Position numbers and translations under genes: made by a program. 37,514 nt of DNA from Actinomycetota bacterium (GTDB lineage Bacteria > Actinomycetota > Rubrobacteria > Rubrobacterales > Rubrobacteraceae), in NCBI GenBank assembly GCA_004563715.1, contig SIRX01000056.1, positions 1-37,514 on the forward strand, given 5' to 3'. Below the pieces are notes generated by a model that saw only the letters and a list, made by a program, of their open reading frames with translations, did no database searches and was not told where the DNA came from. Numbering within the stretch: the stretch's first letter is position 1; the number at the start of each line of letters is the position of its first letter. Shown piece by piece: positions 4,722 to 7,712 of the stretch.

Positions 4722-5723
4722 GTGCGTCGTATATTGCCGGCTTTATTAATGATGGTCTTTACCCTGGGGCTGGTCTCGCAGAGCGAGGCGCAGAGCGGGC
4801 CTTATTCGCAGGTCGTGGACAACGCTTCGAAGAACAGGTTTGCGGCCGCGGACGGGTGGAGGGTGAGCACCAACGGCTCGGGATACTTCGGTAAGAATTA
4901 CGCGGTTGCCAGAACCGCCAACAAGCCCCTCGCCGCCCGGTTCAAGGTCAGGATACCGAAGACCGGCCCCTACACCGTCTACGCCCGCTGGCCCGCCCGC
5001 AACAACCACAACAACTCGACCAGGATAGGGGTCAGGGCCGCTTCGGGCATCAAGTGGACGCGGGTCAACCAGCAGCGCAACGGCGGCAGGTGGGTAAAGA
5101 TCGGCCGCTATCGCATGGAGAGAGGGGACCGTTACAGCGTGATGGTCTCCCGGCGGACCGACGGCAATCGGCTCGTGGTGGCGGACGCCGTGAAGGTCGT
5201 CGAGGCCAGGCGGTCCGTCCGTGGACCCGACAGCATACTCGGGCCTCCCATCCACAGCCAGGCTTCCGTCAGGAAATACGCCCGGTCGGTGGGGAGCACA
5301 CGCTACATCATGGAGACGATCCCGCACTACTACAAGCTGGCCCCCAGGGGGGGCATAGCGCCCGACGTGCTGGTGGCCCAGGCTATCCTGGAGACCGGCC
5401 GCGGCCACTACGGGGGCGACTCGAAGCCCTGGAACATGGCCGGTATCAAGAAGGGGGGCGTCGTGGGGGATGCTCCCAGAGACTTCGAGCGGCCGCGGAC
5501 CGCCTACGAGGGCGTCCGGATGCACGTGAACCACATGGCAGCCTACACCGGCAAGAAACCCATCGGCAGGCCCCACGACCGATTCCACGACGCGCGGGCC
5601 GCCCAGAGGAACCGCGGGTGGTGGGTTCGGAGGGTCAGCCAGCTAGGGGGCGGAGTCTGGGCGATGGACTCCGAGTACGCCGGGAAGATCCGGCGCATCC
5701 TGAACGACATGGGTAAGCACTGA
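4722..5723 (+). CDS. Secreted golvesin-domain glucosaminidase
   Basis: The GTG start is preceded by ggaggggg. The 333-aa protein begins with a signal peptide (about 1-24: MRRI, a hydrophobic core, then SEA). It continues with a beta-rich golvesin-like domain (about 28-160; VDNASKNRF, YTVYARWPA, VVADAVKVVEA), and ends with a mannosyl-glycoprotein endo-beta-N-acetylglucosaminidase domain (about 180-333). In that domain QAILETGRGHYGG carries the likely catalytic Glu224. It should cut the glycan strand of peptidoglycan outside the cell during wall turnover, with the golvesin part as a carbohydrate- or wall-binding module. A TATAGT -10-like box lies at 4632-4637 without a good -35. The gene ends 38 nt before a strong terminator and so appears monocistronic. 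Confidence 0.85.
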   Translation: MRRILPALLMMVFTLGLVSQSEAQSGPYSQVVDNASKNRFAAADGWRVSTNGSGYFGKNYAVARTANKPLAARFKVRIPKTGPYTVYARWPARNNHNNSTRIGVRAASGIKWTRVNQQRNGGRWVKIGRYRMERGDRYSVMVSRRTDGNRLVVADAVKVVEARRSVRGPDSILGPPIHSQASVRKYARSVGSTRYIMETIPHYYKLAPRGGIAPDVLVAQAILETGRGHYGGDSKPWNMAGIKKGGVVGDAPRDFERPRTAYEGVRMHVNHMAAYTGKKPIGRPHDRFHDARAAQRNRGWWVRRVSQLGGGVWAMDSEYAGKIRRILNDMGKH

Positions 5724-5760: not shown

Positions 5761-5796
5761 AAGCCCGCCCGGCAGTGTTTCGCCGGGCGGGCTTTT
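5761..5796 (+). terminator. Rho-independent terminator
   Basis: A perfect 13-bp stem (aagcccgcccggc 5761-5773 / gccgggcgggctt 5782-5794) with an 8-nt loop is followed by TTTT. It ends the glucosaminidase transcript and isolates the micro-ORF region downstream from read-through. Confidence 0.85.
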
Positions 5797-5814
5797 GTCT
5801 ACCTCCGTCTGGAC

Positions 5815-5882: not shown

Positions 5883-5904
5883 TTTTGCCGCGGATGAGGC
5901 AAAA
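5883..5904. promoter_or_regulatory. Inverted repeat upstream of micro-ORF array
   Basis: A perfect inverted repeat TTTTGCC (5883-5889) / GGCAAAA (5898-5904) flanks an 8-nt loop, 50 nt before the first micro-ORF. It could be an operator or an RNA hairpin at the head of the array transcript. I see no clear -35/-10 pair nearby. Confidence 0.45.
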
Positions 5905-5953
5905 TGTACCTGCTGCACCGAGAAATCGCCTGAGGGGGGTGAGCATATAGACG

Positions 5954-5971
5954 ATGCGCAAGCGTTGGTAG
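5954..5971 (+). CDS. Micro-ORF 1, peptide MRKRW
   Basis: ATG CGC AAG CGT TGG TAG encodes five residues, preceded by gaggggggtgagc with 11 nt between GGTGA and ATG. Relative to the other three copies it lacks the Gly codon and has Arg for Ala, both in-frame changes. It keeps the Arg-Lys-x-Trp-stop pattern. It is the first and most diverged unit of the array. Translation is inferred from the SD and the copy comparison. Confidence 0.5.
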   Translation: MRKRW

Positions 5972-6023
5972 CCGGACGACTCTCGTTGGAACTCGTTTTT
6001 CTTCAGAGGAGGTGAATAGAGGC

Positions 6024-6044
6024 ATGGGGCGCAAGGCTTGGTAA
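6024..6044 (+). CDS. Micro-ORF 2, peptide MGRKAW
   Basis: ATG GGG CGC AAG GCT TGG TAA encodes MGRKAW. The SD GAGGAGGTGA (6006-6015) lies 8 nt before the ATG and is among the strongest in the window. It differs from copies 3 and 4 only at third codon positions (the Gly, Arg and stop codons). The peptide is a basic hexamer with a C-terminal Trp. The shortest bacterial precursor gene I can compare it with is mccA (microcin C, seven codons), but no maturation enzyme is adjacent. Confidence 0.55.
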   Translation: MGRKAW

Positions 6045-6099
6045 CCGAGCAGATTTCACTGTCGAACGACTGACTGTATATACGGGAGGTGAGCAAAAA

Positions 6100-6120
6100 A
6101 TGGGCCGTAAGGCTTGGTAG
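6100..6120 (+). CDS. Micro-ORF 3, peptide MGRKAW
   Basis: ATG GGC CGT AAG GCT TGG TAG encodes MGRKAW, with SD GGAGGTGA (6085-6092) 7 nt upstream and an A-rich spacer (gcaaaaa). The block from the SD through ATGGG is identical to copy 4, while the preceding bases are unrelated. The peptide is unchanged although Gly, Arg and stop use different codons than copy 2. Confidence 0.55.
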   Translation: MGRKAW

Positions 6121-6171
6121 CCGGAAAATCAATGCTGTTGAACCACTACTCGTTTGGGAGGTGAGCAAAAA

Positions 6172-6192
6172 ATGGGTCGCAAGGCTTGGTAA
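6172..6192 (+). CDS. Micro-ORF 4, peptide MGRKAW
   Basis: ATG GGT CGC AAG GCT TGG TAA encodes MGRKAW, with SD GGAGGTGA (6157-6164) 7 nt upstream. It is the last unit of the array, followed 22 nt later by a 10-bp inverted repeat (6215-6252) and then by the membrane HD-like gene. Its Gly codon (GGT) is a third distinct synonym among the copies. Confidence 0.55.
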   Translation: MGRKAW

Positions 6193-6214: not shown

Positions 6215-6252
6215 AGAGGTCCCGGCGTGGCTATGTAGACTTCGGGACCTCT
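6215..6252. promoter_or_regulatory. 10-bp inverted repeat closing the micro-ORF array
   Basis: Perfect arms AGAGGTCCCG (6215-6224) and CGGGACCTCT (6243-6252) surround an 18-nt loop. No U-run follows, so it is not a standard intrinsic terminator. It may be an attenuator hairpin, a Rho-dependent end, an mRNA-stabilising 3' hairpin of the array transcript, or an operator for the next gene. Confidence 0.5.
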
Positions 6253-6308
6253 TGGTACTACAATTCCAGCTATGGGAGGAGAGCCCAAATTCTCGCTGGG
6301 GATGGTCT

Positions 6309-7712
6309 TTGTCCTGTAGCGGTACACATCGGATAGCCTTACGAGCTTACGTGGCTGGGCTGGCTGCTCTAGCCGTGGCTGCGCTGGCCGGCTGGACACT
6401 TTACTTTGAGATCTACCTGACTACCGCCACCTTATCGGCGGGGCTCGTTCTGGGCACGCTCTGTGCTGTCGCTCGTTTCTGGCCCGTCAGCTTCGGAGTG
6501 GGCAGAGCATCTTTTGATGCGGACGATGTTCCCATGCTCGCTGCTCTCGTGCTCGGTGGCCCCGCCTGCGCACTCTTGGTCGCCGCCCCCTCGACTATAT
6601 ACCGGAGCCCGTCCCGAACGGTGTTTCAAGGGTCTGCTTACCTGGTGCAGGTTCTCGCCGCTTCGCTGGCGTTTGCGGCTTTCTCAAAACCTTTACTTGT
6701 ACAACCTCAACTTACGGCTTCGTTTGTTTACGGAGTCCTGGCTGCCGGCTTCGTCTTCTTTAGCGTAAACGTACTGACCTCTTCCGGGCTCATGCGCCTG
6801 AAATACCGGCTTTCCCCGGGTGAGATCGCGCGCGAAATGGTCTTGCCGCCTCTGCCCTCGGACGCTCTGGCGATCGTTACGACGCTCGTTACCGCCCTGG
6901 CGATCACCGCCTATGGTCCGGCCGCGGGCCTGATCCTGCTCTCGGGCGCCGCGCTGTCCTTGATCCTCGTGAAGCAGGTCCGGGAGCACCACAAGAGGAA
7001 GCTCCGGGCGGAGGCCGAGAACGCGGCCCTCAGGGAGGCGCTGCGCGAGTCGAACCTGAACCTCGCCGCCCGGCTGGTAGGCCAGCTCGCGCTGCGCGAC
7101 GGCCATGCCCAGGCCCACGCCGCCGCTTCCGCCATCTACGCCGAAGACCTCGCGCGGGAGATGGGGCTCGGAGATGGGCGGGCGCAGGAGGTGCGCCTGG
7201 CCGCGCTCCTCCAGGACGTGGGGCTCCTGTACGTTCCCGACGAGGTCCTGCTGACCCCGCCGGAGAAGCTCAACTCCCTGGGCCGGATGCGGCTCGAGGA
7301 GCACCCGGTTTCCAGCGAGAAGGTGCTCGCGGAGGTTCCCGGCTTGCACGAAGCGGCCCAATGGGTGCGCTGGCACCACGAGCGGGTGGACGGCACCGGC
7401 TACCCGGACCGCCTGCGGGGCGAGTGGCTCCCGCTGGAGGCGAGGATCCTGGCCACCGCGGCGTTCTACGCCTCGCTCGTCCTCGACAGCCCCCACAGCC
7501 AGCGGCGCTCCCCCGAGGAAGCCCGCCGAGCCCTGATCGAGGAGATGGACCAGGCCGTGGACGGCCTGGTGGCAAAGACCTTCCTGCGCGTGCTCGACCG
7601 CGAGGGCGCATCCTACGCCACAGCCTCCGACGGCCGCTTCCGGTTCCCGGAAGAAGAGGTGGCCCCGCCTCCCGCCGCAGACAACGTCTACCAGCTGCAC
7701 GGCCTCTCCTAA
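6309..7712 (+). CDS. Membrane protein with degenerate HD-GYP domain
   Basis: The N-terminal half is a multi-helix membrane domain (from AYVAGLAALAVAALAGW to LILLSGAALSLILV), roughly six to seven helices. A basic/coiled linker (REHHKRKLRAEAENAALREAL) leads to a cytoplasmic HD-GYP-like domain. In that domain the HD pair reads QD (AALLQDVGLLYVPDE) and the following GK reads GL. HPVSSEKVL and HHERVDGTGYPDRL are kept. Active c-di-GMP phosphodiesterases need the HD pair, so this one is probably inactive or a sensor; that is inference. The start is uncertain: TTG 6309 has a weak gggga; TTG 6252 and GTG 6351 are alternatives, and the true start may lie near HRIALRAYV. It stands directly downstream of the micro-ORF array. 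Confidence 0.75.
   Translation: MSCSGTHRIALRAYVAGLAALAVAALAGWTLYFEIYLTTATLSAGLVLGTLCAVARFWPVSFGVGRASFDADDVPMLAALVLGGPACALLVAAPSTIYRSPSRTVFQGSAYLVQVLAASLAFAAFSKPLLVQPQLTASFVYGVLAAGFVFFSVNVLTSSGLMRLKYRLSPGEIAREMVLPPLPSDALAIVTTLVTALAITAYGPAAGLILLSGAALSLILVKQVREHHKRKLRAEAENAALREALRESNLNLAARLVGQLALRDGHAQAHAAASAIYAEDLAREMGLGDGRAQEVRLAALLQDVGLLYVPDEVLLTPPEKLNSLGRMRLEEHPVSSEKVLAEVPGLHEAAQWVRWHHERVDGTGYPDRLRGEWLPLEARILATAAFYASLVLDSPHSQRRSPEEARRALIEEMDQAVDGLVAKTFLRVLDREGASYATASDGRFRFPEEEVAPPPAADNVYQLHGLS

Follow-up and report, generated by a model that had tools for sequence, protein, structure and literature searches.

Here we describe a tandem array of micro-genes in a 37,514-nt stretch of rubrobacterial DNA (hereafter the window), which probably forms with the gene downstream a specificity cassette for a peptide signal and its receptor, a kind of leaderless peptide signalling undescribed in Rubrobacteria. 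Arrays of this format are conserved beside one gene family, their peptides are under selection, and array and sensory half of the adjoining membrane protein have been replaced jointly. From these patterns we infer translation, export and binding of the peptide and the output of the system.

The array is flanked on one side by the terminator-like hairpin of a glucosaminidase gene and on the other by the ORF of a membrane protein with a C-terminal HD domain, hereafter the TM-HD protein (Table 1). A scan of the window found four units of SD, short ORF and Trp-stop on the forward strand and none on the reverse, against an average of 0.06, and never more than 1, in 200 dinucleotide shuffles. This bears out the first-pass annotation, made from the sequence alone, which had reported four micro-genes with strong SDs here; the micro-ORFs span 5954-6192. 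The units follow at steps of 70, 76 and 72 bp; three of their SDs contain GGAGGTGA and the first is GGGGGGTGA. Exactly as had been claimed, the MGRKAW copies differ solely at third bases of the Gly codon (GGG/GGC/GGT), the Arg codon (CGC/CGT/CGC) and the stop (TAA/TAG/TAA). The spacers had been described as unalignable, which is correct for two of the three pairs, these aligning no better than shuffled letters, but not for the spacers after units 2 and 3, which are weakly alike (score reached by 0.4% of shuffles). The RNA fold of the array is not beyond shuffles (z -0.04), and Rfam and tRNA scans gave no match. Within its own 3.47-Mb genome the exact MGRKAW motif occurs three times, all in this array, and a literal search found it in none of 38 other Rubrobacteria genomes.

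Table 1. Features of the array locus, in window coordinates.
Feature	Position	Strand	Basis or remark
Preceding gene, Golvesin_C/glucosaminidase	4722-5723		
Terminator-like hairpin of the preceding gene, parting it from the array	5765..5797	+	sequence; terminator scan match 5779-5791
Putative promoter -10 region of the array, GATGAGGCAAAATG	5893..5906	+	~50 nt 5' of the first start codon; function inferred
SD of unit 1, GGGGGGTGA	5934..5942	+	sequence
Micro-ORF 1, MRKRW-stop, ATGCGCAAGCGTTGGTAG, diverged copy	5954..5971	+	sequence, unit scan
SD of unit 2, AGGAGGTGA	6007..6015	+	sequence
Micro-ORF 2, MGRKAW-stop	6024..6044	+	sequence, unit scan
SD of unit 3, GGAGGTGA	6085..6092	+	sequence
Micro-ORF 3, MGRKAW-stop	6100..6120	+	sequence, unit scan
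SD of unit 4, GGAGGTGA	6157..6164	+	sequence
Micro-ORF 4, MGRKAW-stop	6172..6192	+	sequence, unit scan
Hairpin between array and gene, AGAGGTCCCG...CGGGACCTCT	6215..6252	+	sequence; spacer fold z -1.65
Promoter-like TAGACT-17-TACAAT for the downstream gene	6236..6264	+	sequence
Membrane HD-GYP-like protein, putative receptor	6309..7712	+	Pfam HD_5 and HD; AlphaFold2, Foldseek
ECF-S-component-like transmembrane domain	6339..6986	+	Foldseek ThiT/RibU, probability 1.00; counterpart in relatives exchanged with array
Degenerate HD-GYP domain	7149..7592	+	QDVGL for HDIGK; HHERVDGTGYP kept

The terminator scan matches, that at the preceding gene's hairpin included, are not above shuffle expectation. 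At the putative array promoter a block, GATGAGGCAAAAT, is common to the window and the orthologous loci L008 and L009, and the promoter-like arrangement ahead of the TM-HD gene is also visible by eye in both. The spacer between array and gene folds to a mean z of -1.9 over all loci, and the hairpin within it in the window is a possible terminator of the array transcript. We propose that the TM-HD gene of the window uses a TTG start, its frame being open from 6252. Between the proposed TM-HD promoter and this start, the three orthologues carry an ORF of 15-16 codons (window 6274-6319, L008 ~1471, L009 ~1431) that begins ATGGGAG or ATGGGAGG and ends near the TTG or overlaps it, possibly a leaderless coupled ORF. 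Spacers of a second sub-lineage (G000b, G005, G020, G021b, G022b, G013b) contain a long inverted repeat, e.g. GTACGGAGCCTG...CAGGCTCCGTAC, which brackets the putative TM-HD promoter and is a candidate terminator or operator.

The AlphaFold2 model of the TM-HD protein (mean pLDDT 84, pTM 0.53) has a C-terminal domain with the HD-GYP fold (Foldseek match 4mcw, E=1e-8). Its N-terminal domain matches the S components ThiT and RibU at a Foldseek probability of 1.00, E of 0.05-0.1 and TM-score on target of 0.47-0.65; judged by E-value, this predicted fold match is moderate. Sensor kinases of the 5TMR type are known to have the S-component fold (PMC11109136). Strong profile matches of the TM domain are confined to Rubrobacteria, in which genus g13 has neither this domain nor arrays; weak S-component-like matches outside the class (L252-L258) are not accompanied by micro-ORF arrays. 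The HD-GYP motif is degenerate across the family (QDVGL or HNVGL), with the late Asp lost in most members, and the downstream protein does not carry the full set of catalytic and metal residues (HD...HDxGK...HHExxDGxGYP) of an HD-GYP phosphodiesterase.

Relatives of the TM-HD protein were collected and the 700 nt 5' of each gene were scanned for SD-preceded Trp-stop micro-ORFs, at least one of which was found at 36 of 41 loci. We counted out G022c, whose single ORF looks unrelated, counted in G011b, whose five-copy array in L055 was passed over by the script because of a broken frame, and counted the near-identical pair G027a/G028b once. On this basis 35 of the 40 distinct TM-HD genes are immediately preceded by Trp-stop micro-ORFs, and five related TM-HD loci have no array. 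The 77 units are mostly tandem, 5-11 codons long and all end in Trp-stop, usually as [R/K]-x-W; the terminal Trp was a search criterion for units and not an independent result. They start with ATG (57) or GTG (20), follow at steps of 68-117 bp apart from one gap of 171, and mostly have an SD with at least 7/9 matches. Arg, Lys or His stands two residues before the Trp in 68 of the 77, and net charge is +1 to +3 in 59 and 0 in the other 18. Most loci have two to five copies, a few (G019, G023, G011a, G016b, G026c) a single unit.

Each locus has its own peptide. Examples are MTRKCW, MRFGSRRAW (two copies), MFCRKGW (two), VSEGKIHAW (three, plus VAEGKIHAW), SEGKARFW (three), MTFGQRHGW (two), ARKIW (two), ARRSW (four), PRIASW (five) and GHKYW (two). 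The Rubrobacter taiwanensis loci L110 and L114 have the peptides MRFGSRRAW and VTGFGKNRLW. Conservation is confined to the array format, the strong SD, a basic residue close to the C-terminus and the terminal Trp. In the search of related genomes suggested by the first-pass annotation, for clusters of hexapeptide and SD, the format recurs in the 35 of 40 genes, and MGRKAW itself is found only in the window. When a pattern of two tandem units was searched in 39 Rubrobacteria genomes, the matches passing the SD and start filter all adjoined TM-HD genes. No array was recognised in 357 other Actinomycetota genomes, where the pattern matches look by eye like coding sequence and the script check was partial. 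A literature search on Rubrobacter with small ORFs or HD-GYP found no paper in the collection covered.

Between neighbouring copies in all arrays, 61 codon changes are synonymous and 32 nonsynonymous, against 22 synonymous of 93 expected under unconstrained change (P<1e-5). Eight of the synonymous changes need more than one base, e.g. AGC/TCC and AGG/CGT. The synonymous excess and the multi-base changes together indicate that residues are kept, and not merely DNA or RNA. The earlier proposal of selection on the peptide is thereby upheld across the arrays. Residues before the Trp vary among loci and are nearly constant within an array, where the conserved part is the last 5-6 residues, x-[R/K]-x-W. 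A TGA stop ends 1 of 77 units, compared with 47 of 124 long ORFs (38%) in the same group of loci (P=9e-11), a scarcity that avoidance of Trp-UGA readthrough would explain.

The inheritance of the peptide can be followed in G028a and G026a. Upstream, and through the first 15 nt of the leading micro-ORF, their DNA is 94.5% identical, the next ~800 bp, comprising array and sensory half, are without DNA similarity, and from the end of the TM region onward they are again 97% identical. Fourfold-degenerate sites are 24% identical in TM1, the level of random letters, vs 99% in HD. Faster evolution of one domain would not saturate silent sites, and the 24% therefore points to replacement by a divergent allele. 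The peptides of the two loci differ in sequence (RLNAW vs HRACW). In an independent pair, G023/G017, fourfold identity is 26% in TM and 83% in HD, both flanks are conserved, and the peptides again differ (MKWRTKCW vs MTFGQRHGW). Conversely, G028b and G026b share both the TM half (90%) and the peptide. Joint replacement alone is no proof of binding, since array and TM half are neighbours and could travel on a single recombination tract without interacting; that the replaced block consists of array plus sensory half and ends before the HD half in two independent pairs nevertheless favours a functional unit. By analogy with ComX-ComP, replacement as one block is the signature of a cassette for peptide/receptor specificity.

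The TM tree and the HD tree conflict, and the peptides follow the TM tree. Similar peptides (ARRSW/ARKSW/ARKIW; DRWRTW/DRFRTW; SEGKARFW/TEGTARAW) are grouped there, which they are not on the HD tree. Peptide and TM identity showed no association in a global partial Mantel test controlling for HD (0.006, p=0.46), perhaps because peptides and TM domains are saturated at larger distances. In a test of the most similar peptide pairs, which was chosen after that null result, TM identity was in excess once HD was allowed for (p=0.0003 at every cut), and HD identity given TM was not. Peptides of only 5-11 aa easily reach similarity by chance. Many of the genomes compared are metagenome assemblies; chimaeras are an unlikely cause because several conflicting or mosaic cases occur in different genera.

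In the second sub-lineage an MFS_3 transporter gene comes first, followed by the array, the TM-HD gene and finally a gene for another HD-GYP protein. This last protein has GAF or GGDEF at some loci, and its motif is intact in the copy inspected (L224). The window locus belongs to the sub-lineage without MFS_3 and extra HD-GYP genes, but a single second-kind locus (G000b, contig C139) is present in its genome. Among the ten second-kind loci the peptide tracks TM when MFS is controlled for (p=0.017 in the top 6 pairs, with a weaker signal at wider cuts), and peptide against MFS given TM is not significant. The locus contains no leader, processing protease or importer, and at the window no exporter adjoins it. 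Six loci carry MFS and TM-HD genes with no Trp-stop array (L048, L049 and L051-L054, upstream of G027b, G028:C13, G026d, G016c, G015:C1:304151 and G014b), and may supply an exporter for array loci in the same genome. A coupling of array loss to TM decay was considered and rejected, as the array-less loci are more divergent in both domains.

Taken together, these patterns suggest the following scheme. A short transcript would carry several independent micro-genes, each with its own strong SD and each yielding the same leaderless peptide (MGRKAW in the window), whose dose the tandem copies would raise. The peptide could be exported, as the MFS_3 gene beside the array in one sub-lineage hints, or kept in the cell. 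The S-component-like membrane domain encoded by the next gene would recognise it, and the degenerate HD-GYP domain of that protein would relay the signal, probably towards cyclic-di-GMP or a second HD-GYP partner. Arrays and receptor sensory halves, exchanged together, would generate pherotype-like variants. Of the functions listed in the first-pass annotation, a multi-copy signalling peptide fits best, and arrest leaders and titrating minigenes fit worse because they leave unexplained why the peptide is inherited with the neighbour's sensory half.

A cis-acting role is unlikely. Ribosomes translating the units, or stalling at the terminal Trp, would then control a terminator hairpin before the membrane gene by attenuation, in the manner of TnaC or trpL. 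The Trp codon beside the stop in every unit (a search criterion), the frequent hairpin between array and gene, with the mean z given above, and the position of all arrays upstream of one gene family are what such control would leave. Yet a single leader would be enough, and 2-5 copies spaced 70-100 bp are the usual number, some as far as ~440 nt from the gene, for which a separate promoter seems to lie at or beyond the hairpin. The array itself is unstructured, the gene downstream is TM-HD in every case and not one of Trp metabolism, and the pre-Trp residues, variable among loci and near-constant within an array, track the sensory domain.

It is distinctly unlikely that, within a genuine cassette, the peptide acts solely inside the cell, as a ligand or chaperone for the membrane protein. 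The locus content is compatible with this, there being no leader or processing genes and, at the window, no exporter; the exchange with the sensory half and the diversification among paralogues nevertheless resemble intercellular pherotypes, and one lineage has the adjacent MFS_3 gene. We consider it highly improbable that the micropeptide is a bacteriocin-like or mccA-like antimicrobial, for which the cognate membrane protein would provide immunity or sensing. Cationic Trp peptides, an MFS transporter beside some loci and a peptide replaced with its membrane partner, as in bacteriocin/immunity pairs, would suit it, but the membrane partner is of a signalling type and has HD-GYP as its output, 18 of the 77 peptides have net charge 0, and no modification enzyme stands beside the loci examined by Pfam, unlike mccA. 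Minigenes that titrate ribosomes or tRNA, in which strong SD and shortness matter and the peptide does not, would account for very short tandem ORFs with near-perfect SDs, but they are barely credible given purifying selection on residues within arrays, the many units of 9-11 codons, and the unexplained link to one gene family and exchange with the TM domain.

The peptide-signalling reading can be set beside known systems. The mccA gene has few codons, a strong SD, a single copy and dedicated modification genes; the likeness here is in codons and SD, and neither an adenylating enzyme nor other modification genes were seen at the loci examined, with MFS at some. Mature Phr and arbitrium signals resemble the peptides described here in their size of 5-6 residues and in the basic residue that many of them have internally; they differ in being released by cleavage from secreted precursors and in binding to cytosolic TPR receptors. 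The leaderless communication peptides (LCP) of Firmicutes, such as SIP of Streptococcus pyogenes with RopB, are also very short, have their own SD, lie beside the receptor gene and differ in sequence between systems (PMC10518010). The gene form alone, signalling apart, is shared: a usORF of 5-11 codons here with its own SD and no leader or accessory sequence. LCPs are highly hydrophobic, mostly 8-10 aa, with a cytosolic RopB/Rgg regulator as receptor, and the text of that paper does not mention tandem copies (PMC10518010). Ours, in Actinomycetota, are mostly cationic, Trp-ended and mostly tandem, and their partner is a membrane S-component-like HD-GYP protein rather than an adjacent RopB/Rgg-type TPR receptor.

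As in ComQXPA and Agr, a polymorphic peptide stands beside its putative receptor, and peptide and sensory half diverge together. In ComP-type receptors the N-terminal membrane domain varies far more than the cytoplasmic domain (PMC4008528), and here too the far more variable membrane half (TM1 47% vs HD 98%) co-varies with the peptide, though the global Mantel test was null. In contrast, the peptide is the whole ORF with no long precursor, no ComQ/AgrB processing gene occurs at the loci examined, and the direct output is an HD-GYP-like domain and not a histidine kinase or response regulator. Pfam-annotated neighbours in the window and loci L219-L230 include no ComQ isoprenyl transferase or ComX precursor. 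With 5TMR and other S-component-fold sensors the system has in common an S-component-like membrane domain as receptor module; their description contains no HD-GYP in its main text and no peptide array, and its mentions of peptides concern other matters (PMC11109136). Because defining features of LCP and ComQXPA were looked for and found absent, we file the system under neither. Its gene appears LCP-like and its variation follows a ComX/ComP-like pattern, whereas receptor, peptide chemistry and tandem format set it apart from both.

It is an even question whether Rubrobacteria possess a peptide communication of their own, with tandem minimal genes, leaderless peptides ending in Trp, S-component-fold receptors wired to HD-GYP/cyclic-di-GMP, and pherotype cassettes. 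If so, leaderless peptide signalling would extend to a deep actinobacterial class, an S-component-type membrane receptor would have a peptide ligand, and dose would be set by tandem complete micro-genes instead of one precursor. Standard annotation does not see genes of 5-11 codons, and other such systems may therefore escape notice. Because the cassette boundaries are sharp, receptor specificity could be tested directly by exchanging halves.

Two loci treated individually in the count have peculiarities of their own. In L050 (~1528, reverse strand), a micro-ORF of G022c reads VLFRHRAR-stop behind a strong SD, with CGG as its last codon where other arrays have TGG, and is possibly a decayed or altered unit. 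In L055/L097 the five-copy PRIASW array of G011b adjoins a TM-HD gene whose TM and HD parts are in different frames, which could reflect a pseudogene, an assembly frameshift or two proteins.
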